From the IMG/VR virus record IMGVR_UViG_3300006916_000450, positions 1 through 21,988 of that record: DNA of 21,988 bases; one strand, given 5' to 3'. Position 1 is the stretch's first letter. Each line of letters begins with the position of its first letter. This DNA comes from a virus. The notes below the pieces were generated by a model that was not told the DNA's origin, made no database searches, and saw nothing but the letters and a program-made list of their open reading frames with translations. The position numbers and the translations under genes were made by a program. Shown here piece after piece: positions 1 through 19,536 of the stretch.

Positions 1-48
1 GTCTAACGGCAAAAGGGTCTTGATTTGGTTCACCCCCTACCCCTCGGA

Positions 49-321
49 TCATTCCTGTTGGTTTTCATAGCTGTCAGCCAGCTGATGCATGCACCAATCT
101 TCAAAGCCTTTCACCACCAGGTACGCTCTCACAGTGGGATCCTCGGTGCGCATGTGGATGGTGGGATCATGGTGCAGATAGAACTGATCCCAAAGGCTGT
201 CCAGGTTCAAGCCCAGGACTTCAGCTGTTGCAATCACCGTCCCATCCATATGGAAGGCCAGGAAGCGCTCTGCGATCTCTCGCACAGGAGTTTCATTGGC
301 CAGGTCGGTGATCATCTCCAT
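49..321 (-). CDS. Small phage protein, candidate small terminase subunit
   Basis: A 90-aa protein of unrecognised family. The open frame extends upstream to 399, but I prefer the ATG at 321. That ATG shares one base with the HNH stop codon (TGATG), a junction used repeatedly in this genome, and the longer start would overlap the HNH gene by 79 bp. Residues near the start (ITDLANETPVREIAERF) could form a helix-turn-helix; the rest is mixed helix rich in His, Trp and acidic residues. It lies just downstream of an HNH endonuclease and reads toward the left edge, where the large terminase would be expected. In HK97-like phages that is the usual place of the small terminase subunit, which binds phage DNA and starts packaging. 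The role is inferred from position only; it could be another small head gene. Confidence 0.5.
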   Translation of the reverse strand: MEMITDLANETPVREIAERFLAFHMDGTVIATAEVLGLNLDSLWDQFYLHHDPTIHMRTEDPTVRAYLVVKGFEDWCMHQLADSYENQQE

Positions 322-629
322 CACATCTTCTGGTGTGCCTCTCGGCCTGATTTCACTGCATGGTGGTGATTGCAGAGGGATTGGAATGGTCCATGCCAAA
401 AGGATCCACCTGCCTTCACCCTGGTGATGTGGTCAACCACTGTGGCCAGCTGCACCCGCCCCTTGCTCTCACACCACTCACAGAGCGGTTGGGAGCGCAG
501 GACGGATTCACGCAGCCTCTGCCATGCAGCGCTCTTGTATCTGGGATCAGAAGCAACCCTGCCCTGGTGGGCTGGTCGCTTGGTCTTCCAGGGTCGCTGT
601 GGCTCTTTGCGGATGATGGTTGGCATCAC
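321..629 (-). CDS. HNH endonuclease
   Basis: A 102-aa HNH nuclease. Zinc and catalytic residues are visible: CEWC at about residues 50-53, the VVDHI core at about 64-68 with the catalytic His, and a second metal-binding stretch SLCNHHH at about 84-90 followed by a Lys. The N-terminus is basic (residues 7-18). The length is normal for phage HNH proteins beside terminase genes; in cos-type phages such proteins cooperate with terminase in end cleavage. The start is GTG at 629 or ATG at 626; an AGGAG motif sits 7 nt before the GTG. The stop overlaps the next gene by one base, implying coupled translation. A free-standing homing HNH is the alternative, but the neighbouring small gene favours a packaging role. 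Confidence 0.85.
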   Translation of the reverse strand: MMPTIIRKEPQRPWKTKRPAHQGRVASDPRYKSAAWQRLRESVLRSQPLCEWCESKGRVQLATVVDHITRVKAGGSFWHGPFQSLCNHHHAVKSGREAHQKM

Positions 630-659
630 AGCAAAGCTCCTGGCATTTCTCTTGGAATA

Positions 660-811
660 CTAACACAAAGCACTGACAGGCTGTGCGCATTCAAAGCACA
701 TCAGGTGGTGATCAGTGCCGGATGGACAAAGGATCTTGTTTCTCTTTTTTACAAGGGAAGAAGCTCTTCAAGAAGCTGCTTGATGCTCTTCAAGAAAGGA
801 GGTGCGCACAT
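660..811 (-). pseudogene. Possible broken small Cys/His protein
   Basis: Two abutting minus-strand reading frames might be one decayed gene. The first runs from ATG at 811 to TAA at 749 (20 aa, starts MCAPPFLKS). The -1 frame then continues to TAG at 660-662 with a basic stretch and a metal-binding-like pattern CPSGTDHHLMCFEC. One extra C in the CCC run just before the TAA would join them into a protein of about 50 aa. There is no ribosome binding site. It could equally be non-coding leader between the 325-aa gene and the HNH gene. Confidence 0.2.
763..796. repeat. 12-bp direct repeat, 22-bp period
   Basis: GCTCTTCAAGAA occurs at 763-774 and again at 785-796, in the 212-bp stretch between the HNH gene and the 325-aa gene. 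Each copy contains CTTCAAGAAG or a near match, which can fold into a tiny hairpin. The function is unknown; it may simply be part of the small frame described at 749-811. Confidence 0.5.
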
Positions 812-841
812 GTATGTACGCGGGTACACATGTGTGAGGGA

Positions 842-1819
842 TCACAGCTGTTGGATTTCTCCTGTTGCTGGGTTGATCATCAGCCTCACTTCCTTTGGCT
901 TTGACAGCGCTGCAATCTCTGCACCATGCATCTCCTTCATCTTCTGGATCTCCATCCGGTGATGCTCCCTCAGATTCTCCAGGGCCTGACGAGCTTGAGA
1001 CACTTCCAGGCTCAGCTTTGATGCCTTCTCCTTGTAGTGATTCAGGGCAGCTTCATTGAAGATGTCATCCTTTGGAGATGGATCATCAACGCCTGTGAAG
1101 CACCAGGTGCCCACTGTGGGATCATTGATGATCTCATCACTCGGCAGCTGGTATGCATCCACACCCAGATTCTCCACCCGGCATGGATTGAAGTCATCCA
1201 CATATTCCTGCATGCCATCCTCCCTCTCGATCAATTCGCTGTCCCTGGATCCAAAGTCATTTGCGATCTGCCAGGGTGCTGGGTAGTCCACACCGATTGA
1301 TTCGGGCAGCGGACCATCCATCCACCACTCATGACCATCACACCCCTTCCAAGGCTTGGCAATGACCCTCCATCTGAAAGACCCCATGACATGGTAGAAG
1401 CGACTAAAATCAAAGCCAATGCCATGAACCTTCAGCGCTTCCAACAGTGTCACCACAAAATACTCTGAGGTGCGCTGCTCCTTTCTGAACTTCTTGGAGC
1501 GGAAGCCATCAACGTTGTTCAGCTGCACCGTGGTGCCCAACAGCTGATAATTCCAATGGCTTTGATTCTTGCCTGTGAATTCCTGCAGCTTGGTCCTGTC
1601 CCCATCCCAGAGATCCATCAGGTGACTGTATGCACACAGGGCCACTTGTCGATTGATCAAGCCATTTGAATCCTTCACATCCCAGGGAGCCGGATCATCA
1701 GTCACCCTGCCCAGAGCATGCTTCCCAAGCTGCCTGCCATTGCGGATCAAGCGCTTCAGATCGTCAAGCTCCTTCTTGATCGGGCTCTCCATCACCTGCT
1801 CTGTGGTCATCTTCTCCAT
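842..1819 (-). CDS. 325-aa phage protein of unknown function
   Basis: I do not recognise the family. The start is ATG at 1819, preceded by AAGGAG at good spacing, one of the few clear Shine-Dalgarno sites here. Residues 1-60 are charged and helical. The middle (about 60-240) is globular and rich in Trp, His and Asp (for example GCDGHEWWMDGP near 160-172). Residues about 262-305 form a charged coiled coil. The tail ends in MINPATGEIQQL. No clear HTH, Walker or nuclease motif is visible. It is the first gene leftward of the operator region and precedes HNH and packaging genes, so it could be a regulator (repressor or late activator) or an early head/packaging protein. It lies where a CI-type repressor might be expected but does not look like one. 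Confidence 0.8.
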   Translation of the reverse strand: MEKMTTEQVMESPIKKELDDLKRLIRNGRQLGKHALGRVTDDPAPWDVKDSNGLINRQVALCAYSHLMDLWDGDRTKLQEFTGKNQSHWNYQLLGTTVQLNNVDGFRSKKFRKEQRTSEYFVVTLLEALKVHGIGFDFSRFYHVMGSFRWRVIAKPWKGCDGHEWWMDGPLPESIGVDYPAPWQIANDFGSRDSELIEREDGMQEYVDDFNPCRVENLGVDAYQLPSDEIINDPTVGTWCFTGVDDPSPKDDIFNEAALNHYKEKASKLSLEVSQARQALENLREHHRMEIQKMKEMHGAEIAALSKPKEVRLMINPATGEIQQL

Positions 1820-1841
1820 TTCGCTCCTTTTTCTGTTTTCA

Positions 1842-1948
1842 TTGTCGTATCAACAATCTTCTTCCATCTGTGGATACGGTGTGCATTACTGGTCCGACTT
1901 TTTGTAGGATCGACAATCAAAGTCATCTCATCTTTGTCGGCATAACAA
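1842..1948. promoter_or_regulatory. Three operator-like palindromes, TTGT-N7-ACAA
   Basis: Three 15-bp imperfect palindromes lie in the divergent intergenic region: TTGTCGTATCAACAA (1842-1856), TTGTAGGATCGACAA (1902-1916) and TTGTCGGCATAACAA (1934-1948). Each has a TTGT and an ACAA arm separated by 7 bp, with half-site consensus TTGTCG. Centres are 60 and 32 bp apart; 32 bp is close to three helical turns, which would place sites 2 and 3 on one DNA face. They lie between the 325-aa gene and the excisionase-like gene, as phage repressor operators do. The cognate protein is not identified. A sequence resembling a DnaA box (TGTGGATAC, one mismatch) sits between sites 1 and 2 at 1869-1877. Confidence 0.65.
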
Positions 1949-1977
1949 TTCGCACCGCTTGTTCATTCCGGATGGTG

Positions 1978-2007
1978 CAAATGTAAAACTTCTTGTGACT
2001 TCTACAA
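1978..2007 (-). promoter_or_regulatory. Leftward promoter, Bacteroidota type
   Basis: On the minus strand, TTG (2007-2005) is followed after exactly 19 nt by TACATTTG (1985-1978). This fits the known Bacteroidota sigma consensus (-33 TTTG/TTG, spacer 19-21, -7 TAnnTTTG). Transcription would start near 1970 and run into the 325-aa gene with a leader of about 150 nt that contains all three operator-like palindromes. The -33 element lies immediately beside the start codon of the rightward gene at 2009. Confidence 0.5.
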
Positions 2008-2008
2008 C

Positions 2009-2206
2009 ATGACATACTTCACTGTGACCCAGGCAGCAGAATTGCTGCAAATGCATCCGGAATCCGTCCGGCAGCTGATCAATAGCCATGAGCTCGGAGC
2101 CTTTCGAAAAGGCCCCAGGGGAAGGTTCCTGATTTCGCAGAAGCAGATTGATGCATTCCTGGTCCCCGCTGGAGCTGATTGGAAATCAAGGAAACCGAAA
2201 AAGTAA
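2009..2206 (+). CDS. Excisionase/MerR-like HTH DNA-binding protein
   Basis: A 65-aa protein of the HTH_17/excisionase type. It opens with the signature YFTVTQAAELLQMHPESVRQLINSHEL (about residues 3-29), a winged-HTH recognition unit, followed by a beta-wing stretch GAFRKGPRGRFLISQKQIDAFL and a basic tail KSRKPKK. The whole protein is essentially this one domain. Family members are recombination directionality factors or small transcription regulators. It is the first rightward gene after the operator region. The integrase and attP in this window make excisionase the most attractive role; control of the divergent promoters is the alternative. No Shine-Dalgarno sequence precedes the ATG. Confidence 0.8.
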   Translation: MTYFTVTQAAELLQMHPESVRQLINSHELGAFRKGPRGRFLISQKQIDAFLVPAGADWKSRKPKK

Positions 2207-2247
2207 CACCGAACCCGGACCTGGATGCTGGTTGGCAGAATGGAATG

Positions 2248-2265
2248 GGCTCATAAATAAGAGCC
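2248..2265 (+). promoter_or_regulatory. Hairpin abutting the next start codon
   Basis: GGCTC (2248-2252) and GAGCC (2261-2265) form a perfect 5-bp stem with an 8-nt A/T loop, ending four bases before the ATG at 2270. There is no U-tract, so it is unlikely to be a terminator. It may influence translation of the 265-aa gene, which has no Shine-Dalgarno sequence. Confidence 0.35.
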
Positions 2266-2269
2266 GAAA

Positions 2270-3067
2270 ATGGCAAATTTAGAAACAGGGCTGAAGGCCC
2301 AAATTGAGCAGCTGAAGCAGCAGATGGCTGAGCTTCAGGCTGAAGTTGAACAACATGAGCAGCAACAGGATTCCGATCCTGCACCTCTGCCCAGGATCCG
2401 CAAAAAGCGCACCATGAAGACGGTGCCCAATGCTCCCTGGGAAGACGTTGTGCAGATGGTGGAATTCGTTGTGATCCAGCGGTGGATGGACTACATCTCC
2501 AAAACCCAAGGAGACTGGAGCGATCCGGACGAAATATGCACAGGTGAGAGGGTGCAAGAAGAGCTGCTGGAATGGATGGTGATCCACACTGATCAGGTCA
2601 TGCTTTGGTATGACCAGCTTCCAAACCAGGTGCAACAGCAAAACAGCATTGACACCCAGCGCATGTCCCTTCTTCGGGCTTACATGTTGACGGTGGGCAC
2701 CATTGATGGCAGCTTCAATCATGCTGACATCCTCAACAGCCTTGCTGGGCTTGGTGAGCTTGGAAAGCGGTTGGCAGCGGATCTCTTTTGGTCAGGCCTT
2801 TCAGAGTTGCTGGCTGGTGATCGCAGGGATAGCAATGGCGATCTGCACGAAAACAAACAACGCAGAGAAGCATTGGCCATTGTCAAGAAACAGGCTGAGA
2901 TCATGCAGCACAGTGGCATTGTGGACCCTACGGAATCCCGCAGAAGCATTCACTGGAATCCGGCACAAAACCACACCCGCAGTGCTGCCACCTATGAATT
3001 CAAAAAGCTGCCCATCTCGGCACCGCAACCCGATGAAGACAGCTGCCAACTCCCAATGCCATTCTGA
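2270..3067 (+). CDS. 265-aa early protein with N-terminal coiled coil, unknown function
   Basis: I do not recognise the family. Residues about 3-35 form a strong Gln/Glu-rich coiled coil, followed by a Pro-rich linker with the basic patch RIRKKR at about 42-47. The remaining roughly 190 residues are mostly helical and acidic. The extreme C-terminus (PDEDSCQLPMPF) has acidic residues followed by Pro-Phe, like the protein-interaction tip of single-stranded DNA-binding proteins. It sits early in the rightward operon, just upstream of replication genes, and its stop overlaps the next ATG by one base (TGATG). A role in replication, recombination or host takeover is plausible from position but not shown. 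Confidence 0.75.
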   Translation: MANLETGLKAQIEQLKQQMAELQAEVEQHEQQQDSDPAPLPRIRKKRTMKTVPNAPWEDVVQMVEFVVIQRWMDYISKTQGDWSDPDEICTGERVQEELLEWMVIHTDQVMLWYDQLPNQVQQQNSIDTQRMSLLRAYMLTVGTIDGSFNHADILNSLAGLGELGKRLAADLFWSGLSELLAGDRRDSNGDLHENKQRREALAIVKKQAEIMQHSGIVDPTESRRSIHWNPAQNHTRSAATYEFKKLPISAPQPDEDSCQLPMPF

Positions 3068-3642
3068 TGATTGAGATTGAATTCTTTGGAAACAAAAGGC
3101 ACTTGAATGTGCACAGAGAGACGGTGAAGGCCACCTGGGATTGCTTATGCAATCGACGGTGTGCCGGAGCCACCACTGGCTTGATCATGGAATGGATCAA
3201 AGCCCACCGGAAAGAGCTCATTCCTGGTCTTGATGCGCGGGCACCGCATAACGCTGGACCCGCTGAGCGCACCCAGGCATGGAAGACGGCCATTGGACAG
3301 GCATTGGATGAGCTTCAAGCTGAGAAGAAGGTGCACTGCGATGACATCGGAAAACGCAAGATGCATGGTGATGAGCGCTCTGTGCCAGTATGGAGGACCG
3401 CTGATGATTACCTGGCATTGAGAGATCACCTGGCCTGGGCGCTGCGGGAAAAGAAGCCGGAATCCGGCACCTGGTACGCAGCCAACCATCTCAAGGTGAC
3501 CAGGAGCGCCATTCAACCCGCACCGGATTGGTGCACCACTTACACGATGACCGCAGATGCATATCAATGGAGCAACAGAGACACCACATGGATCTCTGAA
3601 GTGGTCAACTTTTTTCAACCTAAAAACAAAAACGATCAATGA
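3067..3642 (+). CDS. 191-aa early protein, unknown function
   Basis: Unrecognised. The start codon shares one base with the previous stop (TGATG at 3065-3069), fixing the start. The protein is basic in the first half (FFGNKRHLNVHRETVK; WIKAHRKEL) and contains scattered Cys and Trp but no clear zinc motif. The first 100 residues could be a winged-helix-like DNA-binding segment (GATTGLIMEWIKAH), but this is speculative. It ends with an ATGA overlap into the DnaA-like gene, so the three genes are probably translated as a coupled set. No start-site or membrane signals stand out. Confidence 0.7.
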   Translation: MIEIEFFGNKRHLNVHRETVKATWDCLCNRRCAGATTGLIMEWIKAHRKELIPGLDARAPHNAGPAERTQAWKTAIGQALDELQAEKKVHCDDIGKRKMHGDERSVPVWRTADDYLALRDHLAWALREKKPESGTWYAANHLKVTRSAIQPAPDWCTTYTMTADAYQWSNRDTTWISEVVNFFQPKNKNDQ

Positions 3643-4097
3643 CAGTGACAAATCAAATCCCGCCACTTCCAGTCACCCGGACTGTGAAGGGCCTCACCAA
3701 AACCAAAGCGGAGCAGCTGCACAAGATTGTGCGGATGGTGGCTGATGAAGCCGGGATCCAACCAGAAGCAATCTGGGGCCCGGATCAGGATCAATACAGT
3801 GTGGCATATCGGAGAGCAATCTGGTGGGCCATGCGCCTTGGATACGGCATGACTTTGGAGAACATAGCTGCCAGCTTCCACAGCTCCACAGGGGGGACAT
3901 TCAACCACACCAGTGTGATGGTGGGATGCAACCACATTGCTGAGGAAGCAGCACTGAAATGGGATGAGCGCAGGGGCAAATGGGTGGACGGTGCGGGCGT
4001 TGCTTGCAGCCGTGTCCGGCTCAGAGAAGCCCTGCAAATAGTGTCTGAAATCTGGAATTCTGAAAACCCAAACCAACTCCAATCATGGAAAAAATAA
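3639..4097 (+). CDS. DnaA domain IV-like DNA-binding protein
   Basis: A 152-aa protein whose centre resembles the C-terminal DNA-binding domain of DnaA. Residues about 53-100 read as a long helix with the conserved Arg (SVAYRRAIWWAMRL), then LENIAASF (helix), an insertion, and NHTSVMVGCNHI, matching the DnaA signature Ig..f..R-x-H-T-T-V..a..ki. In DnaA that His-Thr-[ST]-Val helix reads the DnaA box. There is no AAA+ domain, so this is a lone DNA-binding module. Its position directly before a DnaD-like protein and a helicase-like ATPase suggests a replication initiator or origin-binding role. It starts in an ATGA overlap with the 191-aa gene. The loop between the two signature halves is longer than in DnaA, which lowers certainty. 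Confidence 0.6.
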   Translation: MTVTNQIPPLPVTRTVKGLTKTKAEQLHKIVRMVADEAGIQPEAIWGPDQDQYSVAYRRAIWWAMRLGYGMTLENIAASFHSSTGGTFNHTSVMVGCNHIAEEAALKWDERRGKWVDGAGVACSRVRLREALQIVSEIWNSENPNQLQSWKK

Positions 4098-4351
4098 CAA
4101 TGACCATCAACCTGGACAAAATCCAGGAAGACCGAGCCTGGGAATACAATGGTGCCCGGTACATCTCGGTGACTCTGATCCCAACCCCTGACAATCAATA
4201 TGGGAAGGACTACATGTGCAAACAGTATTGGAAGGATGACACTCTTCCTGCTGGCAAATACCCTGATCATCCGATCCTGGGCAATGGCAAAACCATGAAG
4301 CAAGGCTCCCAGGGGCCATCTGTCAACAAAGATGAAGGCAGCCCATTCTGA
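4085..4351 (+). CDS. Small early protein, family seen in Bacteroidota phages
   Basis: An 88-aa protein (83 aa if the ATG at 4100, just past the previous stop, is used). The pattern INLDKI...G.RYISVTLIPTPDNQYGKDY...Q, then PILGNGK, resembles a widespread small phage protein with conserved DKI, DQYG and LGN motifs, usually of unknown function and found among replication genes. The tail KDEGSPF is acidic and ends in Pro-Phe, like the tip of single-stranded DNA-binding proteins. A ssDNA-binding or replication accessory role is therefore possible but unproven. It overlaps the DnaA-like gene and is joined to the following gene by TGATG. Confidence 0.7.
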   Translation: MEKITMTINLDKIQEDRAWEYNGARYISVTLIPTPDNQYGKDYMCKQYWKDDTLPAGKYPDHPILGNGKTMKQGSQGPSVNKDEGSPF

Positions 4352-4995
4352 TGGCGGTGAAGAAGACTCTTGATGCAGACAGCCTCCAGGATTTCCTTCT
4401 GGGGGCTGTTGCTTCTTCGGGCATTGGGTCCGGCCTCCCGGTATTTTGGGCTGTGGGTTACCTGGTGAAGAAAGCAGGGACCTCAACAGTCCAGGTCACG
4501 CTTGATCAGCTCGAAGAAATGACTGGCTACAGCAGAAGCGAATGCACCGCTGCTGTAAAGCAAATCCGCACCGCTGGGCACCGTGTTCAATGGGACAGCA
4601 AAACGGATTGCACCATCACCATTGATGCAGCAAAAGGGATGGCATTGATGGGCCCCTGGTTAACCAGCGAAGAGAAGCCACAGGCTGAGGATCTCAGGAC
4701 CATTGTTGACTACCTCAACCAGGTTGCAGGCACTGCATTCAAGTGGACCCCCTCGGTGCGCAGGCAGCTCAATGCTCGGACCACTTCGGACCGCATGACA
4801 TTGGAAGAGCTGAAGCATGTCATTGATGTGAAGTGCGAACAATGGAAGGGAGATGCGGACATGGAGAAATACCTGAGACCCTCCACCCTCTTTGGCACCC
4901 GCGCTGTGGAATACAGCCAGGAGAGACTGAAGGGGACGATCACTGAAGAGAAAGAAATCAGCCGGGAAGACCTGGGACGAATGTGGGCAGGATGA
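4351..4995 (+). CDS. DnaD-like replication protein with Phg_2220_C domain
   Basis: A 214-aa protein. Residues about 26-90 look like a winged-helix domain (VTLDQLEEMTGYSRSECTAAVKQI). Residues about 113-193 match the conserved phage C-terminal domain Phg_2220_C: TIVDYLNQVAGTAFKWT, then LEELKHVIDVKCEQW and the hallmark YLRPSTLFG near 174-182. Proteins with this architecture are phage replication initiators or helicase-loader-like factors related to DnaD. The gene lies immediately upstream of the helicase-like ATPase, which fits a loader role. Its start is in a TGATG overlap with the preceding gene. Confidence 0.8.
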   Translation: MAVKKTLDADSLQDFLLGAVASSGIGSGLPVFWAVGYLVKKAGTSTVQVTLDQLEEMTGYSRSECTAAVKQIRTAGHRVQWDSKTDCTITIDAAKGMALMGPWLTSEEKPQAEDLRTIVDYLNQVAGTAFKWTPSVRRQLNARTTSDRMTLEELKHVIDVKCEQWKGDADMEKYLRPSTLFGTRAVEYSQERLKGTITEEKEISREDLGRMWAG

Positions 4996-5984
4996 TGGAG
5001 AAGAGCCTGATCACAAATCCCATTGAGATGGGACTGGAAGTGGAGCGGATCCGCAACAGCGTTCCCAAGGGTGGAGCATACGCTGGCTGGGAAGCATTGG
5101 ATTCAATCTTCACAGCAAAGAAGGGCTTCCCCCTGGTGATCTATGGGGCACCGCATTCTGGGAAGTCAGTCTTCATGCTGAACCTGTGTGTGAATCTGTC
5201 CAGGCAACATGGTTGGAAGCACCTCATCTTCAGCAGCGAGCAGGGCACAGTGGCTGATTTGATCCTGGAGGTTGCTGAGATCTACCTGAAGAAGCCGCTG
5301 AGGAAGTACACTGAGAGAGGGAATGAGAGAATGGATGTGGCCAGCGAAGGTGAGCACTTCAATGCTCAGCAGTGGGTTGCAAAGCATTTCCGCTTCATTG
5401 ATCCTACCCATCCCCGGTGTCAGGAGTTTACCCTGGAGGATTTCCACCAGTGGTGCGAAGAAGCAGAAGCCGATGGCTTCAAGCCAGATGTGACTGTGTG
5501 TGATCCCTTCAATGATGTGGCCATGCAGCTGCAGAAGTACGGTGGAAGGCAGGATCTGTGGCTCACTGCTGTGCTGAAGATTGCCAGGGATGTGGCCATG
5601 AAGAAGAACCGTGTGGATATCCTGGTGAACCACATTGCCCAGCAGCAGACCACAATGGTCTCAGAGCGCGGGCAAAGATTTGCACCCCCTGCCATGATGA
5701 ATGAAGCCAATGGTGGGGTGGCTTGGAGCAGGAGGGCATTCACTGTGCTCCTGGTGTACAGGCCCCCATCCAATGATCAGCTGAAATTTGGGAAGCATGT
5801 GGTGACCACAGGCCCTGATGAGAGCTGGATCATCTGTCAGAAAGCCAAGCCCAAAGGTGTTGCCCAGCTCGGACAGGCTGTGCTGTATTACCACGCGGAT
5901 TCTGGCTGCTTCTATGAACGAACAGACCCCAGCGATCTCAGGCAGAGATTCTTTGCTGGAGAGCTCAAATCAAAAGGATCATGA
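4992..5984 (+). CDS. RecA/DnaB-fold replicative ATPase (helicase-like)
   Basis: About 330 aa. The Walker A motif GAPHSGKS lies near residues 52-59. FSSEQ follows in the position of the DnaB LSxEM-like motif, DVTVCDPFND is the likely Walker B strand, and ILVNHIAQQ is the likely sensor strand. This is the RecA-like core of DnaB or RepA-type helicases without a large N-terminal domain. It would unwind DNA at phage replication forks, loaded by the upstream DnaD-like protein. Three starts are possible: GTG at 4983, and tandem ATGs at 4992 and 4995. The tandem ATGs overlap the previous stop (ATGA and TGATG), so one of them is preferred. RepA-like recombination ATPase is the alternative reading. Confidence 0.8.
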   Translation: MMEKSLITNPIEMGLEVERIRNSVPKGGAYAGWEALDSIFTAKKGFPLVIYGAPHSGKSVFMLNLCVNLSRQHGWKHLIFSSEQGTVADLILEVAEIYLKKPLRKYTERGNERMDVASEGEHFNAQQWVAKHFRFIDPTHPRCQEFTLEDFHQWCEEAEADGFKPDVTVCDPFNDVAMQLQKYGGRQDLWLTAVLKIARDVAMKKNRVDILVNHIAQQQTTMVSERGQRFAPPAMMNEANGGVAWSRRAFTVLLVYRPPSNDQLKFGKHVVTTGPDESWIICQKAKPKGVAQLGQAVLYYHADSGCFYERTDPSDLRQRFFAGELKSKGS

Positions 5985-6349
5985 TGAGCCACCTGGAGAG
6001 ACTGATGGCCCGCACCTACCTGGGAGCCCAGATGGAAATCATTGGGATGTGGCTGGATGATGAGCCGGACCTGACTGAAGAAAAGAGAGCGAACTGGCAG
6101 AGACTGCATGACACCCTCAGCCAGGTGAACCTGTGCTTCCATGACATGGAGGAAGAGATCACCAGGAAGATGAATGCCAACAGCACATACAAGATCCGGA
6201 TGCTCGAAGATGCAGAGCGCATTGGATCACTGAAGACCCAGGTGGCATCCCTGGAAGAAGAGAATGCCAGGCTGAAGGAAACGGTTTCCGCAGCCATTGA
6301 AATTCTATCAAATAACAACATCAACCCCGCACCACTATGGCGAACCTAA
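5981..6349 (+). CDS. 122-aa coiled-coil early protein, unknown function
   Basis: Unrecognised. It starts at tandem ATGs (5981 and 5984) that overlap the helicase stop, repeating the junction used one gene earlier. The first 60 residues are amphipathic helix (QMEIIGMWLDDEPDLTEEKR). Residues about 70-112 are a strong coiled coil (MLEDAERIGSLKTQVASLEEENARLKE). No catalytic motif is visible. It overlaps the next gene by 13 nt. It is probably an accessory or scaffolding partner within the replication block. Confidence 0.7.
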   Translation: MMSHLERLMARTYLGAQMEIIGMWLDDEPDLTEEKRANWQRLHDTLSQVNLCFHDMEEEITRKMNANSTYKIRMLEDAERIGSLKTQVASLEEENARLKETVSAAIEILSNNNINPAPLWRT

Positions 6350-6723
6350 GCAACGAAGAGAAGGCCTTCATGAATAGCCTCTTCAACTCCTATGATCTGA
6401 GCATGGATGACATCTTCAGGCACCAGCACTTTGTGATCATCAAAAGGCAGGGCATTGAGAAGATCATGGCAAAGGCAGGGATCACCCTGAAGTATGATGT
6501 GGAAGGTTGCTCTGAGAAGTATGCTGCAGTGCGCTGTGAAGCCACCAATCCAGAGGGCCAATCCATCACAACCTTTGGCAGCGCATGCCCTGAGAATTGC
6601 AGAAGCCCCTATTTCCTGGAGATGGCTGAGAAGAGAAGCAAAAGCAGGGCCATCCTCATGCTCTGTGGTCTCTATGCCAACGGGGTTTACAGCGAAGTGG
6701 AGGAAGCCCACATCAATGATTGA
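6337..6723 (+). CDS. 128-aa phage protein, possible recombination accessory
   Basis: The C-terminal half carries the motif YFLEMAEKRSKSRAILMLCGLYANGVYSEVEEA. It resembles a common phage family with an AEKRAKxRxxLxLxGLxxxVYSExE signature, usually located in replication or recombination modules. The first half has YDLSMDDIF...FVIIKRQGIEKIMAKAGITLKYDV, typical of the start of that family. The function is not established; single-strand annealing or substrate-recognition roles have been suggested for look-alikes, and I would not go beyond that. There is no Shine-Dalgarno sequence. It overlaps the upstream gene by 13 nt and the downstream one by 8 nt. Confidence 0.7.
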   Translation: MANLSNEEKAFMNSLFNSYDLSMDDIFRHQHFVIIKRQGIEKIMAKAGITLKYDVEGCSEKYAAVRCEATNPEGQSITTFGSACPENCRSPYFLEMAEKRSKSRAILMLCGLYANGVYSEVEEAHIND

Positions 6724-6976
6724 TGCAGATCTGCTGTGCCAGCTGGAAGAGCATGAGTGCCTTCTGGCTGATGGCTTTGATGCTGCCCTGATCGGGATCA
6801 GCTATGGAGCCAATCCTGTTGCCGTTTATGAGGTGGGCATGTGCATTGATGTGCTCATCTCAACCGGGATGGACACAGAAGATGCCTGGGATTTCTTCAG
6901 CTTCAATGTGGCTGGATCCTATGTGGGTGAAAAAACTCCCTGCTTCATAGATCTGTATGACTCAGAGCCCAATTGA
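6716..6976 (+). CDS. Conserved small phage protein, unknown function
   Basis: An 86-aa protein. The frame is open upstream from 6494, but the ATG at 6716 overlaps the previous stop by 8 nt and gives the family's usual N-terminus. The sequence shows a recognisable phage pattern: LADGFDAALIGISYGANPVAVYE, then MCIDVLISTGMDTEDAWDFFSFNVAGSYVGEKTP. Proteins with GMdxxxAxxfFxFNvxGxYvGExTP are frequent in phages, with no known activity that I can name. Acidic, no membrane segment. It overlaps the next gene by 20 nt. Confidence 0.7.
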   Translation: MIDADLLCQLEEHECLLADGFDAALIGISYGANPVAVYEVGMCIDVLISTGMDTEDAWDFFSFNVAGSYVGEKTPCFIDLYDSEPN

Positions 6977-7229
6977 TTTCTTTGATCAGGCCCTGGTGCC
7001 TTGCCCTTCCTGGTTGCTCTCAAAATGCAGCCGAATGTTGGGGGATGTGTGCCTGGATGATGTCTCCCTGGAAGGGATTGAAGACCGCATCCACAGCGAC
7101 GAAATGAGCGAAGCTGAGGGCCTGGATCTGCTGGCTTACCTGGAGCAGCACAGAAAGCAGCTCTGGGACTACTATGCCCCCAGCCAGAGAATGATCAGCA
7201 AGCACATCAAGCTAATCTGTGAGCTGTGA
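6957..7229 (+). CDS. 90-aa acidic early protein, unknown function
   Basis: Unrecognised. It is acidic and helical (DVSLEGIEDRIHSDEMSEAEGLDLLAYLEQHRKQLWDYY) and is the last gene of the rightward early operon. It begins inside the preceding gene (20-nt overlap). Its TGA stop forms the left half of the palindrome TGATCA whose right half is the integrase stop, so the two convergent genes have no space between them and no terminator is visible. Confidence 0.65.
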   Translation: MTQSPIDFFDQALVPCPSWLLSKCSRMLGDVCLDDVSLEGIEDRIHSDEMSEAEGLDLLAYLEQHRKQLWDYYAPSQRMISKHIKLICEL

Positions 7230-8549
7230 TCAGAGCCCAACCAGCTCCTTCACCCTCAGCGCTGTCTCAACAGCATTCATGTTCACATACTTGTTGAATT
7301 CGCTCTCAACCTTGTGCCCTGTCATTCCCATGATGGTCCTGGTGGCAATGCCCTTGCTGGCCAGGTATGTTGCAAAGGTTCTCCTGGCAGCATGACTGGT
7401 GACCAGCTGCCACTGATCCACCTCTTCCATCTTGCGCTGCCCATTTTCATCCAGGATAGGCTTCAGCATCTTCTCATCAAATAAGCCAGAGAGCTTGGCC
7501 CCTTTTCGCAGCAGCTTGTTGTACCTGGTCAGAGCTCCAGTGGGTGGCAGCTGCCCTCCATGCTTGGCAGCAATCTTGTGCACCATGTCCCAAACAGGCA
7601 CAGTCACAAAGGCATCTGTTTTCTTCATGTGGATGCTGAAGGTTTCCCTGGATGGGTTGTCATTGTACTGCTTGATGACCTGGGCCAGATCAGAAACCCT
7701 GACACCTGTGGTGCACTGAACACAGAACAGATCCCTGGCCTTCTTCACTCCCGTCCTGGGAGCACCTCCCTGATCAGCTGGTGTATCTGGCACCTCCCAA
7801 TCCAGGAAGGCTTGCAGCTGCTTCTCAGACAATGCAAAGCGCAGCACATCAGCTTCCTTCACTGTCCATTCTGGATGCTTGTGGTGATCGAAGGTGTGGA
7901 TGCCCAGGCTTCTTGCCCTGGTGATCCATCCTCTGACTGTCTTCACCCACCTGCCCACAGTTCCTTCTGATGTCCTGGAATCATCCAGGTATCCATGCCG
8001 GAAGTAGTTGGCAGCTTTGCCAGCTCTCCAGTCCCTCATGGCCTGGCAGAAGTTGTGATCCATGTTGGACCAGCTCAGCTCCTCTCCTGTTTCAATGCTG
8101 AACTGCTCCAGGATCCTGAGATCAGCCTGGTACTTCTTCCTGGTTGCTTCGGTGCCTGTCTTGCTTTGCCCTGGCAGCGCTGTCTTGTCAAACTCATTGA
8201 CAAACTTGGTGACCCAGGGAAGAAAGTCCATCTGGGTGCCCTGGTGTGGGTCCAGATCCCCTGCCAGGTAGCTCTTGAATTCAGCTGCAGTGAATTCATC
8301 CTTCTTGATGTGGTGCAGCCTGTTCCATTCCCGCTCCAGGTCAGCTTGCTGCCTGGTGATGTCTGCATGGATATCCCGCAGCTCCTGGTTGCCTCTGAGC
8401 AGCTTCACATGCTTCTGCTCCTGATCCCAATGGATGGCCTTGATTGTGCACCCTGTTCCAAACTGGCAGCGCTGCTTGCCCCATTGAATTCTGATCTGAA
8501 GATGCCCCTTCTGTTGTGCATACTCCTTGAAGCGAATTGTGCTTTTCAT
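7230..8549 (-). CDS. int: Tyrosine-type phage integrase
   Basis: A 439-aa site-specific recombinase. Residues 1-95 are a Bacteroidota-type arm-binding domain (beta strands around LQIRIQWGKQRCQFGTG, then WD...), about 105-215 the core-binding SAM-like domain, and 235-430 the catalytic domain. The catalytic set is complete: Arg284 in TTGVRVSDL, a candidate Lys at 309-310, His386-x-x-Arg389 in HAARR, His412 in TGHKV and Tyr421 in EFNKYVNM. It would integrate and, with an excisionase, excise the phage genome. The ATG at 8549 is preceded by AGGGGG, which is itself part of the first arm-type repeat at 8551-8561, suggesting that integrase binding could limit its own expression. The gene ends back to back with the early operon. 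Confidence 0.95.
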   Translation of the reverse strand: MKSTIRFKEYAQQKGHLQIRIQWGKQRCQFGTGCTIKAIHWDQEQKHVKLLRGNQELRDIHADITRQQADLEREWNRLHHIKKDEFTAAEFKSYLAGDLDPHQGTQMDFLPWVTKFVNEFDKTALPGQSKTGTEATRKKYQADLRILEQFSIETGEELSWSNMDHNFCQAMRDWRAGKAANYFRHGYLDDSRTSEGTVGRWVKTVRGWITRARSLGIHTFDHHKHPEWTVKEADVLRFALSEKQLQAFLDWEVPDTPADQGGAPRTGVKKARDLFCVQCTTGVRVSDLAQVIKQYNDNPSRETFSIHMKKTDAFVTVPVWDMVHKIAAKHGGQLPPTGALTRYNKLLRKGAKLSGLFDEKMLKPILDENGQRKMEEVDQWQLVTSHAARRTFATYLASKGIATRTIMGMTGHKVESEFNKYVNMNAVETALRVKELVGL

Positions 8550-8550
8550 T

Positions 8551-8595
8551 TTTGTCCCCCTTTACATTTCATTTTGTACCCCTTTTTGTCCCCCT
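8551..8595 (+). repeat. Arm-type integrase-site repeats, left cluster (3 copies)
   Basis: Three same-orientation copies of TTTGTCCCCCT lie at 8551-8561, 8573-8583 (variant TTTGTACCCCT) and 8585-8595. Together with two identical copies at 8808-8830 they flank a 212-bp interval beside int. This is the arrangement of arm-type binding sites around an attP core, and it suits an integrase with an N-terminal arm-binding domain. The first copy touches the int start codon. Confidence 0.7.
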
Positions 8596-8609
8596 TTCAG
8601 ATTTGCTCT

Positions 8610-8629
8610 GACTGGAAAAGACTGGAAAC
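8610..8629 (+). repeat. Tandem 10-bp repeat, possible excisionase site
   Basis: GACTGGAAAA at 8610-8619 is followed directly by GACTGGAAAC at 8620-8629. A period of about one helical turn inside an attP-like region resembles the tandem binding sites of excisionases. The candidate protein is the HTH protein at 2009-2206. The link is inference. Confidence 0.4.
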
Positions 8630-8682
8630 AGTGGGAGTCACAAAGTGCTCACATGCCCTGTCTTTCCTGCAAACTTAGGCAC

Positions 8683-8713
8683 AAAAAAGCCCGCAACCAT
8701 TGAGGAAGCGGGC
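8683..8713 (-). terminator. Intrinsic terminator, minus strand
   Basis: On the minus strand GCCCGC (8713-8708), a 13-nt loop and GCGGGC (8694-8689) are followed directly by six T residues (8688-8683), a textbook rho-independent terminator. No phage gene in the window is transcribed into it from the right. It makes sense if it travels with the borrowed 3' end of a host RNA gene just upstream (8734-8751), insulating int after integration. Confidence 0.8.
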
Positions 8714-8733
8714 GAAGTTTTGCACATCATTCA

Positions 8734-8751
8734 GGTGGAGCCGGCGGAAGT
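8734..8751 (-). other. attP: Candidate attP core resembling tmRNA/tRNA-Ala 3' end
   Basis: The minus strand reads ACTTCCGCCGGCTCCACC. This resembles the T-arm and acceptor end of alanine-accepting RNAs; E. coli tmRNA ends ACTCCCGCCAGCTCCACCA as I recall it. The acceptor half CGGCTCC+A would pair with GGGGCCG and keep the G3:U70 pair used by alanyl-tRNA synthetase. The base after CC is T rather than the encoded A. It lies between the two arm-repeat clusters and 21 bp upstream of the terminator stem, as expected if the phage integrates into the 3' end of ssrA or a tRNA-Ala gene and restores it. Confidence 0.4.
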
Positions 8752-8807
8752 GTAGACACCCCCTCTGACCCCCAATGATTCCAAGTCTTTCAGAGAGCGG
8801 GATCACT

Positions 8808-8830
8808 TTTGTCCCCCTATTTGTCCCCCT
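8808..8830 (+). repeat. Arm-type integrase-site repeats, right cluster (2 copies)
   Basis: TTTGTCCCCCT at 8808-8818 and 8820-8830, identical to the left-cluster consensus and with the same 12-bp spacing as left copies 2 and 3. The remaining sequence to 8911 holds no confident gene. A 46-aa plus-strand frame (8775-8915) crosses these repeats and is probably fortuitous. Confidence 0.7.
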
Positions 8831-8911
8831 GCAGTTGTTAACTGAAAAGGATCTGAATTCCTTGTGCTGCAAGTTTACCCCTGGAATGGTTAGGCTGGAC
8901 ATTCTTGCAGT

Positions 8912-9367
8912 GTGAAACCCCTCACACAGAAGCCGATCAAGCGCACTGCTTTGGGCTCCTGGCTGAAAGGCAAAGCACCTCACATCCTGGACACTGTTGG
9001 TGACCTCCTCCCTGATCGGGGTGGACTGGGCATCCTCAAGAACCTCCTGGAGAAGGATGAGGTGATGAGCCCCCAGGACAAAGAGCAGCTGCAGATCCTG
9101 ATTGCCCAGCGCACTGAGCTGGAGAATGAGATCACCCAAAGGTGGCAGGCTGATTCCAGCTCCTCCTCCTGGCTGGCATCCAATGTCCGGCCATTGATCG
9201 TGCTGATCCTGGTGATCACCCTCCTGGTGTTCATCGTCCTGGACAGCATGGATCTCTCCTTCTTCATCAGAGATGCCTGGGTGAGCTTGTATGAAGTTCT
9301 GACCCTCACAGCTGTGGGTGGATACTTCACCCTGCGCTCTGTGGTGGACAAAAGGCAAAAGCATTGA
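8912..9367 (+). CDS. Holin-like membrane protein (3TM/GTA-type family)
   Basis: A 151-aa protein. A soluble N-terminal half with helix and coiled-coil character (DEVMSPQDKEQLQILIAQRTELENEITQRWQAD) is followed by the family hallmark SWLASNVRPLIVLILVI. Hydrophobic segments lie at about residues 94-111 and 122-142, and the basic end is LRSVVDKRQKH. This matches the holin family typified by gene-transfer-agent release proteins: inner-membrane proteins thought to permit endolysin access to the cell wall. GTG at 8912 is the only plausible start, because a stop lies in frame at 8891 and no ATG lies between. The gene is translationally linked to the next by a TTGA overlap. It is on the strand opposite to the other lysis genes. 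Confidence 0.7.
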   Translation: MKPLTQKPIKRTALGSWLKGKAPHILDTVGDLLPDRGGLGILKNLLEKDEVMSPQDKEQLQILIAQRTELENEITQRWQADSSSSSWLASNVRPLIVLILVITLLVFIVLDSMDLSFFIRDAWVSLYEVLTLTAVGGYFTLRSVVDKRQKH

Positions 9368-10356
9368 AGAAACAAACACCAGCAGCATTCTTGATCCAGG
9401 AACTTCTTGAGCTGTTCCCTAACACCCCCAGCCTGACCCTGGCCAAAAAAGCATACACCCTGGCACCAGAGATGTGGAAGGATCTGGAAGCAACCAGGAG
9501 CATGGTGAGATTCTACAGGGGAGCCAGCGGGAAAGGATCCAGGAAGCACACCAAAGCATCCAGGGACTTCTCAAAGCAGCTCTTCAATCCTTTTGACTTC
9601 CCTGCCAGTGATGAAGCGGAATATCTGCCTTACATCCTCCCAGAGGACTGCAAGAAGATCCTGTGGCTGTCAGATGTGCATGTGCCATATCACAGCCTGG
9701 AAGCTCTGACTGCTGCTGTCCAGGTCGGGATCATGGAGCAGGTTGATACAATCTTCTTGGCTGGAGATTTCATGGATTTCTATGGCATCAGCACATATGA
9801 GAAAGATCCCAGGAAGCGATCCTTTGCAGGTGAGCTGGAGATGGGCAAAGTGATGCTGGAGAAACTCAGAGAAATCTTCCCGGATCAGCACATCTTCTTC
9901 ATGGTGGGCAATCATGAAGAGCGCCTGGAGAGATACATGCGGGTGAAGGCACCTGAACTGCTGGACTGTGATCAGTTCAAGATCCAGGAGCTGCTGGGAT
10001 TTGATGCCCTGGGCATCCATGTGATCAATGGGAAGCGGGTGTGCCATGCTGGTGATCTGGTCCTGATGCATGGTCATGAATTCGGCAGAGGATCCGGTGG
10101 AGTATTCCCAGCCAGGGCTCTCATGCTGAAGGCCAAAACATCAGCGATCTGTGGCCATTGGCACAGGCCTTCTGATCATGCTGAGAATGATGTGAATGGG
10201 AAAGTGGTCCGCGCCTGGTCAACAGGCTGCCTGTGTGAGCTCAATCCAGAGTACATGCCACTGAACAACTGGGGGCATGGCTGTGCTGTGATCACAGTTG
10301 ATCAAGGCCAGGCATCAGTGCAGAATATCCGCATCCAGAATGGCCAGGTGATCTGA
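9364..10356 (+). CDS. Calcineurin-like metallophosphoesterase
   Basis: A 330-aa protein with all the metal-binding motifs in order: SDVHVPYH (about 103-110, Asp and His), GDFMD (134-138), GNHEE (182-186), MHGHE (235-239) and GHWHRP (264-269). Residues 1-90 are a lineage-specific N-terminal extension. The fold hydrolyses phosphomono- or diesters with two metal ions; the substrate in phages is generally unknown (nucleotides, DNA ends or RNA). The start is TTG at 9364, overlapping the holin-like stop; the next ATG is at residue 37 and would only trim the extension. Its TGA makes TGATCA with the stop of the convergent VRR-NUC gene. In the prophage it would sit near one end, in a position typical of accessory cargo. 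Confidence 0.85.
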   Translation: MKKQTPAAFLIQELLELFPNTPSLTLAKKAYTLAPEMWKDLEATRSMVRFYRGASGKGSRKHTKASRDFSKQLFNPFDFPASDEAEYLPYILPEDCKKILWLSDVHVPYHSLEALTAAVQVGIMEQVDTIFLAGDFMDFYGISTYEKDPRKRSFAGELEMGKVMLEKLREIFPDQHIFFMVGNHEERLERYMRVKAPELLDCDQFKIQELLGFDALGIHVINGKRVCHAGDLVLMHGHEFGRGSGGVFPARALMLKAKTSAICGHWHRPSDHAENDVNGKVVRAWSTGCLCELNPEYMPLNNWGHGCAVITVDQGQASVQNIRIQNGQVI

Positions 10357-10755
10357 TCACAGATCCAGGTTGTCTTCTTTGAAGTATTCCCGGATGATCT
10401 CCAGGCATGCTTCCCTCCCCTTGGCAATCACTGCCTGGTATCCCCTGGCTTCCAGGTCCTGCTTCCATTTCTTCTGATCCTTGGTGGCTGATCCCTGGGG
10501 TCTCTTCAGCTCAATGGCCAGCCCCATGAATCCTTCCCTGGGCTCATAGAAGAACAGATCTGGAAAGCCCCTCTTGTAGCCTGTGGCCTTCATCCTCCTG
10601 GCTTCTGCAATGCTGGTCCTGACACCTCCAGCTGATGCACAGTACAACAGCCAGGGAGCCTTCAGATCAAGCAGCTCACAGATGCTCTTCTGGATTGTGT
10701 ACTCTGATTCAGGTCCATGCCTGGTGCCTCCCTTTTGTCTTCCCCTGGATCTCAT
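10357..10755 (-). CDS. VRR-NUC domain nuclease
   Basis: A 132-aa stand-alone VRR-NUC protein of the PD-(D/E)xK superfamily. E16 in SEYTIQ begins the domain. GGVRT (43-47) and GYKRGFPDLFF (59-69, with Pro65-Asp66) are followed by AIELKRPQG (80-88, Glu82-x-Lys84) and DQKKW (93-97). Phage members are thought to act on branched or structured DNA, for example Holliday junctions or packaging intermediates. It is the last gene of the late minus-strand operon. Its ATG overlaps the DUF5675 stop (ATGA), and its stop abuts the metallophosphoesterase stop. Confidence 0.85.
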   Translation of the reverse strand: MRSRGRQKGGTRHGPESEYTIQKSICELLDLKAPWLLYCASAGGVRTSIAEARRMKATGYKRGFPDLFFYEPREGFMGLAIELKRPQGSATKDQKKWKQDLEARGYQAVIAKGREACLEIIREYFKEDNLDL

Positions 10756-11207
10756 GCGCTGACTATTTCCAGGATCACCTCATCACCTCCCAGGATCGCA
10801 TCCCTCACCTGTGGATACACTTTCTCATATGCTGCCCTGGATGACCCAAGGAACCTGGGGCTGAGACTGTCACCCACCAGGATGCAGCCAGAGGTGTGAT
10901 CATCATTGTTGCCACAGTGCACCAGGATATCTGTGAAGCCAGGGACATCCAGGATCTCAATCATCCCCTGGTGCCAGGCCTTGCCATAGCGCTTCAGATA
11001 TTTCTGATGCATGCCAGCATACTCCCTCAGCTTGAGCTTGTAGATGCCAGCCGGGATCCTGGTCTCATGCATGACCTTCACCGCTCGGTGCTCATCCTCC
11101 AGGGTGAAGCACAGGAAGTCCAGAGCCTGTCCTGGGTCATCCCAAAAGAGCAGGCCCTGGGTCTCATCCTCAGTGTGATTGAATCTGATCAGCTTGAGCT
11201 TCTTCAA
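10752..11207 (-). CDS. DUF5675 family protein, probable lysis/cell-wall enzyme
   Basis: A 151-aa protein with the DUF5675 pattern: FTLEDEHRAVKVMHETRIPAG (about 34-54), then GMIEILDVPGFTDILVHCGNNDDHTSGCILVG (about 81-112). The HCGN...TSGC motif recalls the His and Cys arrangement of L,D-transpeptidase-like folds, and phage members are commonly found in lysis cassettes. The start is TTG at 11207, giving MKKLKLIRF; there is no better ATG. It overlaps the upstream small membrane protein by 38 nt. Enzymatic activity is inferred from family context, not shown. Confidence 0.7.
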   Translation of the reverse strand: MKKLKLIRFNHTEDETQGLLFWDDPGQALDFLCFTLEDEHRAVKVMHETRIPAGIYKLKLREYAGMHQKYLKRYGKAWHQGMIEILDVPGFTDILVHCGNNDDHTSGCILVGDSLSPRFLGSSRAAYEKVYPQVRDAILGGDEVILEIVSA

Positions 11208-11376
11208 TTTCTTTGATTCGTTTCTCTTCCCAGTGCTTTCTCAGCTGGGCATATTGATCCAGGTGGGCACTTTGTTTCTTGTGCTCCTTGTACATCTCCA
11301 TGAGCAGCAGGCCTGACATGCAGCCCACTGAAATTGTGATGAATAGAACTGCAATGCTGTGCACCTCCATGATCAC
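11170..11376 (-). CDS. Small membrane protein, possible spanin-like
   Basis: A 68-aa protein with one membrane segment at about residues 7-28 (IAVLFITISVGCMSGLLLMEM) and a charged C-terminal helix (HLDQYAQLRKHWEEKRIKEIEEAQ). An N-terminal anchor followed by a charged helix is the layout of inner-membrane spanins, but length and motifs are not diagnostic. The start is GTG at 11376, overlapping the previous stop (GTGA); an ATG at 11370 is the alternative. It lies in a chain of overlapping small genes before DUF5675, consistent with a lysis cassette. Confidence 0.6.
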   Translation of the reverse strand: MIMEVHSIAVLFITISVGCMSGLLLMEMYKEHKKQSAHLDQYAQLRKHWEEKRIKEIEEAQADQIQSH

Positions 11377-11576
11377 AGTTGATTCTTTGCCAGGATCAGC
11401 TTGATCTCTTGCACCATGTCACTCACATGCTGCAGCATCTTCTTCATCTCGTCCCGGTCCCCCTCCATGTAGTCCATCCGGGTCTTCAGTTTGCCCATCT
11501 CGTTGGTCAGCCTGACATACACAGCCATGACAGCAAGCACAGACGGGATCAGACTGGCCATCATTTCCCAGCTCAT
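11373..11576 (-). CDS. Small membrane-anchored coiled-coil protein
   Basis: A 67-aa protein. Hydrophobic residues about 5-22 (MMASLIPSVLAVMAVYVRL) are followed by a continuous coiled coil to the end (NEMGKLKTRMDYMEGDRDEMKKMLQHVSDMVQEI). The layout is like small phage holin-associated or XhlA/spanin-like proteins. The start codon overlaps the upstream stop (ATGA). The exact lysis role is inferred from neighbours only. Confidence 0.6.
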   Translation of the reverse strand: MSWEMMASLIPSVLAVMAVYVRLTNEMGKLKTRMDYMEGDRDEMKKMLQHVSDMVQEIKLILAKNQL

Positions 11577-11794
11577 TCTTCTTCATTTTTCGGGTTTAGA
11601 TGATCGCTGATCAGCCAATTCACCAGGGCATCCAGGTATCCAAAAACCTGCACAGGCTTCTCACTGGGCAGGAGGTTCAAAGCTGCTTTGATTGCAGCCA
11701 TGCCGATCAGAAGAAGCTCCCCCCAGTTGTCTGCGAAAAAGGCAGCCAGGGAGAAAGCTGATCCATCAGCCAGGTTGGTCATTGTTGTGTCCAT
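11573..11794 (-). CDS. Small membrane protein of the late operon, holin-like
   Basis: A 73-aa protein with one hydrophobic segment at about residues 25-42 (GELLLIGMAAIKAALNLL) and a second amphipathic helix (VFGYLDALVNWLI); the tail is acidic (NPKNEEE). Similar short proteins (NWG...IKxxxNLxP.E...FGxLD) are familiar from Bacteroidota phages next to lysis genes. It may be a holin or an accessory of one. It begins 3 nt after the stop of the 44-aa gene and ends in an ATGA overlap. Confidence 0.6.
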   Translation of the reverse strand: MDTTMTNLADGSAFSLAAFFADNWGELLLIGMAAIKAALNLLPSEKPVQVFGYLDALVNWLISDHLNPKNEEE

Positions 11795-11797
11795 TGT

Positions 11798-11932
11798 TTA
11801 GGGTGTTTCAAGGTTTGAGATTCTTTCATCCATGTCATTGATGGCATCCACAAGCTCTTCCAGCAAAGCCAGGAGCTGCTCAGCATCCACAATGTCATTC
11901 CGGGTGTCTTCGGTGATGTTCAGCTGGATCAT
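11798..11932 (-). CDS. 44-aa acidic coiled-coil protein
   Basis: A short gene, easily missed. Its ATG (11932-11930) overlaps the stop of the hub/fibre gene as ATGA, and its TAA (11800-11798) is 3 nt before the next ATG, filling the gap exactly. The product MIQLNITEDTRNDIVDAE continues as a leucine-rich acidic helix (LLALLEELVDAINDMDERISNLE). It is probably a small coiled-coil protein translated by coupling; its function is unknown. A fibre-associated or lysis accessory role is possible. Confidence 0.6.
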   Translation of the reverse strand: MIQLNITEDTRNDIVDAEQLLALLEELVDAINDMDERISNLETP

Positions 11933-15939: not shown

Positions 15940-15940
15940 C

Positions 15941-18841: not shown

Positions 18842-19140
18842 TTCTTCAGGTATTCAATTTGATCAGTGGTGGGTATTGATGTGTGCTCTGTTGCTTTTGC
18901 ATATGGGTTGAAATCGTTGGGCTTGTAGGCCTTGGATTTCTGTGATCGCTGGGTGTTTGCAACCAGGGCCATCATCGCTGATGTCCTGGCCCAATGCCTC
19001 TCTTCCTCGTGCTTCAATCCTTTTGACCAGCATCCGAATTCAGCCAGGGTCATCCCCCAGAACTGATCAGGAAGCAATCCCATTGAGAGCCCCAGGGAAT
19101 AGAGCTCACGCCAGGTGCTGATTGATGCTCCCTCTTCTAC
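18820..19140 (-). CDS. Tail assembly chaperone T part, made by -1 frameshift
   Basis: This is the -1 frame that continues the G-like protein after the slippery site at 19140-19146. It encodes VEEGASISTWRELYSLGLS and then the 87 residues from the ATG at 19083 (MGLLPDQFWGMTLAEFGCWSKGLKHEEERHW...). The W-x-E-L motif upstream of that ATG belongs to the domain, arguing that the normal product is a fusion of about 220 aa (114+19+87) rather than a separate protein. Such GT fusions bind the tape measure and recruit tail tube subunits. The reading frame overlaps the tape-measure start by 22 nt. Confidence 0.85.
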   Translation of the reverse strand, partial: VEEGASISTWRELYSLGLSMGLLPDQFWGMTLAEFGCWSKGLKHEEERHWARTSAMMALVANTQRSQKSKAYKPNDFNPYAKATEHTSIPTTDQIEYLKKWQGNPS

Positions 19141-19481
19141 TTTCCCGCAGTCTCAGACTCAGGATCATTGAAGCCCAATGCATCACTGATCTGGGAAGCG
19201 TATGCTGTGATGGCATCTGGATCAGCCAGGACCAAAGCAGCAAAGCGATCAAAGGCCAGGCCTTCTGGCAGCTCCTTGCCATGATAGGCTGCTGCATTCT
19301 TCACTCCTGCCCAAAGCACAGCTGGCACGAATTCCAGTGCATTGCTTGTGGCAAAGTTGTCCAGATCAGCCAGCTCCATTTCTTGATCCTGACAAAGGAT
19401 CCTGAAGCAGTTCATGTTGAGCAGAGCATCCAGGGTCATTGCCCCAGCTTTCACCTGCACTTCTCCTCTCAGTGTGTTCAT
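19137..19481 (-). CDS. Tail assembly chaperone, G-like
   Basis: A 114-aa protein located between the major tail protein and the tape measure, where siphoviruses encode the G chaperone. It begins MNTLRGEVQVKAGAMTLDALLNMNCFRILC and is mostly helical and acidic toward the end. Its last codons are GCG GGA AAG TAG, so the slippery heptamer GGGAAAG ends directly at the stop codon. Most ribosomes would make this short form, a minority the GT fusion. The gene is preceded by a strong RNA hairpin (19502-19536) and has no Shine-Dalgarno sequence. Confidence 0.8.
   Translation of the reverse strand: MNTLRGEVQVKAGAMTLDALLNMNCFRILCQDQEMELADLDNFATSNALEFVPAVLWAGVKNAAAYHGKELPEGLAFDRFAALVLADPDAITAYASQISDALGFNDPESETAGK
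19140..19146 (-). promoter_or_regulatory. -1 programmed frameshift site GGGAAAG
   Basis: On the minus strand the zero frame reads GC-G GGA AAG TAG. Slipping back one base gives GGG AAA GTA, an open frame that runs without a stop into the T part. GGGAAAG is the same heptamer used by phage lambda gpG/gpGT. The stop codon immediately after the heptamer should cause pausing and favour the shift. Confidence 0.85.
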
Positions 19482-19501
19482 GTGGTTCTATGGATGAAGC
19501 A

Positions 19502-19536
19502 AGGCCCAGCATTCCCAGGAAAGGGATGCCAGGCCT
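19502..19536 (-). other. Strong intergenic RNA hairpin, no U-tract
   Basis: On the minus strand AGGCCTGGCATCCC (19536-19523) pairs with GGGAATGCTGGGCCT (19516-19502), giving 14 pairs with two G-U wobbles and one bulged A, and a 6-nt loop. It begins 14 nt after the major tail protein stop and precedes the chaperone gene. Without a U-tract it is unlikely to terminate fully; it may protect or process the major tail protein mRNA and so raise its yield over downstream genes. Confidence 0.6.

Follow-up and report, generated by a model that had tools for sequence, protein, structure and literature searches.

In phage lambda, several operators lie in the gap between the divergent cI and cro genes, and cI is served by two promoters, PRM and PRE. 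To our knowledge, lysogeny control in the phages of Bacteroidota is barely characterised, and searches of an open-access library brought up no studies on this subject. The phage 186 protein Apl and the P2 protein Cox are small helix-turn-helix (HTH) proteins of the excisionase family that come first in the early operon. Regulators of the excisionase type bind direct repeats spaced by one helix turn, and their sites at att resemble those at the switch (PMC7498355).

The locus described here belongs to a stretch of viral DNA of 21,988 nt (hereafter, the window), in which four palindromes of the form TTGT-N7-ACAA occupy a 189-bp gap (1820-2008) between a leftward and a rightward operon. The likeness to lambda-type cI/cro regions consists in the multiple palindromic, putative operators between divergent transcription units, the small HTH protein that heads the early operon, and the predicted leftward promoters, one overlapped by an operator and another antisense to the small HTH gene. 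Unlike in lambda, the leftward gene does not encode a protein of the CI, XRE (HTH_3) or S24 type, the four sites are spaced at 60, 32 and 59 bp, and downstream of the putative repressor gene come genes for an HNH endonuclease and for packaging. As with Apl and Cox, the first protein of the early operon is a small HTH protein of the excisionase family (above the curated cut-offs of TIGR01764 and PF12728), whereas the sites of Apl and Cox are direct repeats that recur at att and those in the window are inverted repeats that are absent from attP. Lambda-O-type iteron origins (e.g., in contigs L057, L068 and L071) also contain several copies of the same TTGT-N7-ACAA class; those copies are arranged in tandem inside the initiator gene, mostly 18-26 bp apart, in contrast to the intergenic location and the 32-60 bp distances seen here.

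The palindromes start at positions 1842, 1902, 1934 and 1993, and the window contains no other match. O1 (1842-1856, TTGTCGTATCAACAA) is located 22 bp upstream of the start codon of the leftward gene for a 325-aa protein; O2 (1902-1916, TTGTAGGATCGACAA) and O3 (1934-1948, TTGTCGGCATAACAA) form a core pair; and O4 (1993-2007, TTGTGACTTCTACAA) holds the -33 TTG of a predicted promoter, with the ATG (2009) of the rightward gene for a 65-aa HTH_17 protein starting one base past its end. The layout is almost mirror-symmetric, with O2 and O3 about 3 helical turns apart and the outer distances amounting to about 5.6-5.7 turns. The array is real and far beyond chance: shuffles of the whole window give an expectation of 0.36 palindromes against the 4 observed, and none of 20,000 dinucleotide shuffles of the gap yielded more than 2. 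Contigs L008 and L010, the sources of the remaining genome, contain no match. A weight matrix derived from the four sites assigns them scores of 15.2-18.8, compared with 11.4 for the next-best site in the window, which is within the 325-aa gene, and only 5.96 for the best site near attP. An earlier, sequence-only reading placed three palindromes at 1842-1948; their positions proved exact, as did the gap size of 189 bp, and the fourth site, at 1993-2007, had been overlooked. The divergent operator array that this reading proposed between the early (replication) operon and the leftward operon is supported. No site in the window matches its full consensus TTGTCG-N3-CGACAA exactly, and the best two carry one mismatch. 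The strong half-site TTGTCG is present once in each of three sites, and the fourth consists of TTGTAG and TTGTGA halves.

The gap region also contains predicted promoters. The -33 TTG is a promoter element of Bacteroidota. In Flavobacterium psychrophilum, the -7 box recognised by the main sigma-A is TAnnTTTG (PMC9723704). The strict pattern TTG-N17-21-TAnnTTTG has two matches in the window, both strands taken together (0.24 expected), both of which face leftward and lie in the switch region. PL1 (1978-2007, minus strand) combines the TTG within O4, a 19-bp spacer and TACATTTG, with the -7 box at 1985-1978, and would read into the 325-aa gene. PL3 (2274-2303, minus strand; TTTG-N18-TAAATTTG, -7 box at 2281-2274) sits at the start of the gene for a 265-aa protein and would direct transcription to the 325-aa gene, crossing the HTH_17 gene in antisense. 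A weaker candidate with one mismatch, PL2 (1918-1948, minus strand), joins the TTG within O3 through a 20-bp spacer to TGACTTTG (1925-1918). Relative to the 325-aa gene, PL1 and PL3 are placed like PRM and PRE relative to cI, which suggests, from position and motif, that they may be used in a similar manner. Promoters of the Escherichia coli sigma-70 type were represented by a single weak match, outside the gap. No convincing strong rightward promoter was found, which speaks against the switch reading.

The rightward early/replication operon (2270-7229, plus strand) includes a DnaA domain IV-like gene (3639-4097), a 214-aa replication initiator of the Phg_2220_C family (4351-4995) and a DnaB-type helicase (4983-5984), all on the plus strand; the last of these is similar to helicases from phages of Flavobacterium and Riemerella. 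The leftward operon consists, in the order from the gap, of the 325-aa gene (842-1819, minus strand), a 212-bp spacer, the HNH endonuclease gene (321-629, minus strand), and terS and terL, the latter two known from contigs L002 and L007. No confident terminator is detectable in the spacer, and tandem GAAGCTCTTCAA-type repeats with a period of about 12 at 758-796 within it could be a late promoter or another regulatory site. Contig L008 extends from terS to beyond the gene for the major capsid protein and, as its comparison with L010 indicates, adjoins the right end of the window. Together, L008 and the window add up to a composite genome of some 29.9 kb; therefore, no regulatory region is missing from the window. 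The ends of several contigs (the window, L008, L009 and L010) cluster at or just before terS, beside the HNH gene, which suggests a cos site. The interval between terL and the portal gene holds variable cargo, an esterase/PHB-depolymerase-like gene in L008 (2595-3698) and a different secreted-type protein, encoded on the opposite strand, in L011 (2160-3131).

The phage looks temperate, judging from a tyrosine integrase (7230-8549, minus strand; profile matches to the SAM-like and arm domains), a tmRNA-type attP (core candidate CCGGCTCCAC, 8735-8744, minus strand, equal to the 3' end of tmRNA), and a related prophage, with a 92% identical integrase, integrated at the tmRNA gene of a Flavobacteriales metagenome-assembled genome (MAG). 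The contig with this prophage ends within the helicase gene, short of the switch region, and carries between the integrase and the early operon an additional secreted-type gene (L055:11339-11900) that is absent from the window. Identity between the two integrases (window region 7230-8600) is about 52% over the first 40 aligned residues, about 80% over the next 40 and about 98% over the remainder; the repeats beside attP (window 8807-8830; L055:9950-10130) switch from the GGGGGACAAA type to the GTGTGACACA type. These observations suggest a possible swap of the integrase arm module, with the arm domain and the arm sites exchanged together.

Which protein would bind the palindromes is not apparent from homology. 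Pfam scans covering all six frames of the non-structural regions (1-9700, 9700-11950 and 18800-21988 of the window and the terL-portal region of L008) revealed no CI-, XRE-, LexA- or S24-like protein; the stretch 11950-18800 is taken up by two large tail genes, and the remaining frames of L008 are those of terS, terL, portal, protease and capsid. The DNA-binding matches were HTH_17, a DnaA_C-like domain and a sub-threshold Hop2 winged helix, and the other matches represented replication, integration, nuclease, esterase and structural families. Searches with PHROGs (the minus strand of 1-9700 and selected proteins) and NCBIfam (selected proteins) likewise detected no recognisable repressor. Thus, the statement of the sequence-only reading that neither neighbour of the gap is CI-like is borne out and, by profile scans, the absence extends to nearly the whole genome; the canonical CI elsewhere in the genome that this reading named as evidence against itself was not found in the scanned regions. 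Its further suggestion of an unusual regulator stands as a hypothesis and can be narrowed to two proteins, the one of 325 aa, which we prefer, and the one of 65 aa.

The 325-aa protein, encoded by the first gene of the leftward operon, is an orphan with a coiled-coil-like C-terminal helix. It has no match in Pfam, PHROGs, NCBIfam or PDB, and profile searches detect in it no HTH or other DNA-binding domain. A simple HTH profile, written from general knowledge, scored the HTH_17 protein at 13.1 and the initiator at 7.5 and did not recover the 325-aa protein; an HTH-like stretch at residues 73-94 of the latter (GDRTKLQEFTGKNQSHWNYQLL) scored -1.1, below the 95% shuffle limit of 1.6, and was dismissed as evidence. 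The AlphaFold model is unusable (pLDDT 35). An IMG/VR alignment search shows that homologs are restricted to near-identical contigs of the same lineage; none were found in the phage collection or, in a search run without a positive control, among 114 host-family genomes. The 65-aa protein (2009-2206, plus strand), whose gene heads the rightward early operon, belongs, as had been proposed, to the excisionase-type HTH proteins: it matches Pfam PF12728 at 9e-11 and exceeds the curated cut-off of TIGR01764. Its model (pLDDT 54) has no significant fold match, and the weak hits are chiefly MerR, BldC and excisionase proteins.

The array most likely supplies the operators for a switch between lysis and lysogeny. 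In the explanation that we favour, the virus is a temperate siphovirus of Flavobacteriales, and the four palindromes are the operators of its switch, with the 325-aa protein as the most likely binder; taken jointly, these statements have, in our estimate, an even chance of being correct. A symmetric (dimeric) phage protein would occupy the four palindromes, with O2 and O3 as the core pair on one face of the DNA and O1 and O4 flanking them, and the bound protein would turn off the rightward early operon and adjust the leftward promoters. The binder would be the orphan 325-aa protein, whose gene occupies the cI position, divergent from the early operon, and could be served by the operator-overlapped, PRM-like PL1 and the distal, antisense, PRE-like PL3; the coiled-coil-like helix could allow dimerisation. 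The 65-aa HTH_17 protein would act as the opposing lytic regulator, as an excisionase or as both. The sites, the order of the genes, the temperate gene set and the absence of a recognised repressor from the scanned regions are direct observations, whereas we infer promoter use, binding, the identity of the binder and repression from the sequence and its comparisons. Our preference for the 325-aa gene as encoding the repressor stems mainly from the PRM/PRE-like promoter geometry. Against this preference, the HNH and packaging genes come next in the same operon, an unusual neighbourhood for a repressor gene; moreover, the 325-aa protein has no detectable DNA-binding domain, and it changed between the window and L007 while the operators did not.

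Comparison of relatives bears on the last point. Both contigs that share the two flanking genes, L002 and L007, retain all four sites, as the sequence-only reading requires, and their gaps are identical to that of the window, which makes this retention weak evidence. Between L007 and the window, 49 positions of the 325-aa gene vary, altering 26 codons nonsynonymously and 16 synonymously (the proteins are 92% identical), compared with 2 positions in the HTH_17 gene and none in the gap or in the HNH gene. The unchanged gap fits constraint and could equally be a recombined patch, and three contigs decide nothing; site conservation is uninformative because the lineage is represented by only three near-identical members. 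Pattern scans of IMG/VR produced about 50 other contigs with arrays and, among the matches listed, the divergent intergenic architecture occurs only in L002 and L007. A wider phage family with this array was rejected, given that the others among these matches are almost all intragenic, namely, replication-O iterons, repeats in T4-like or structural genes, and radical-SAM-like genes; a few (e.g., L059 and L072) are intergenic but lie beside structural genes. The arrays inside putative replication-O genes (L056, L057, L062, L068-L071, L081, L085, L096 and others) have a spacing of mostly 18-26 bp, often adjoin dnaB-like genes, and appear to be iterons of origins, built from this class of palindrome.

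The alternative that survives best, which we still consider rather unlikely, is that the 65-aa HTH_17 protein binds all four palindromes as a Cro-, Apl- or Cox-like regulator of lytic growth that also represses its own gene, in which case the 325-aa protein would be an unrelated late or accessory protein. The 65-aa protein is the sole recognised HTH regulator adjoining the gap, and the position of O4 directly before its ATG makes a natural autoregulatory site. We nevertheless rank it as the less likely binder and the 325-aa protein as the most likely one. Proteins of the recombination directionality factor (RDF) type recognise direct repeats spaced by one turn and have similar sites at att (PMC7498355), whereas the repeats here are inverted and, contrary to the expectation for this type, attP carries no copy of the palindrome; furthermore, the 65-aa chain leaves no evident segment for dimerisation, and its role as binder would leave prophage maintenance unexplained.

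A much less probable reading makes the gap mainly an origin of phage replication, with the palindromes as iterons to which either the Phg_2220_C initiator or the DnaA domain IV-like protein would bind. The same palindrome class forms tandem iterons in replication-O-like genes of other phages, replication genes are present in the adjoining operon, and a DnaA-box-like sequence, GTATCCACA, is located at 1877-1869. This box, however, is one among many one-mismatch matches in the window, iterons elsewhere are spaced at 18-26 bp compared with 60, 32 and 59 bp here, the initiator gene (4351) lies over 2 kb away from the gap, and the change in GC skew tracks gene direction. Least probable of all is the binding of the palindromes by a host transcription factor that sets the lytic or lysogenic choice: some temperate elements do use host repressors, which counts in its favour together with the lack of a recognised phage repressor in the scanned regions, but a host regulon of this motif is unlikely, given that the perfect motif has 14 matches in 114 host-family genomes (once each in 14 genomes) against 33 for the reversed control and is thus not enriched, and that the 12 host matches examined are mostly intragenic, have no second site nearby, form no clusters and are not upstream of regulators.

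Returning to the switch with the 325-aa protein as its binder, we consider it possible, if somewhat doubtful, that this protein is the founder of a new repressor family for lysogeny in which no DNA-binding domain can be recognised, and that it acts via the four TTGT-N7-ACAA operators in a lambda-like switch of a Bacteroidota phage. As a test object the locus is compact, with four sites in 189 bp, a set of predicted promoters and two proteins as candidates. Should the 325-aa protein prove to bind these sites, it would represent a type of repressor that homology searches miss and would help explain temperate phages that are annotated without a repressor.
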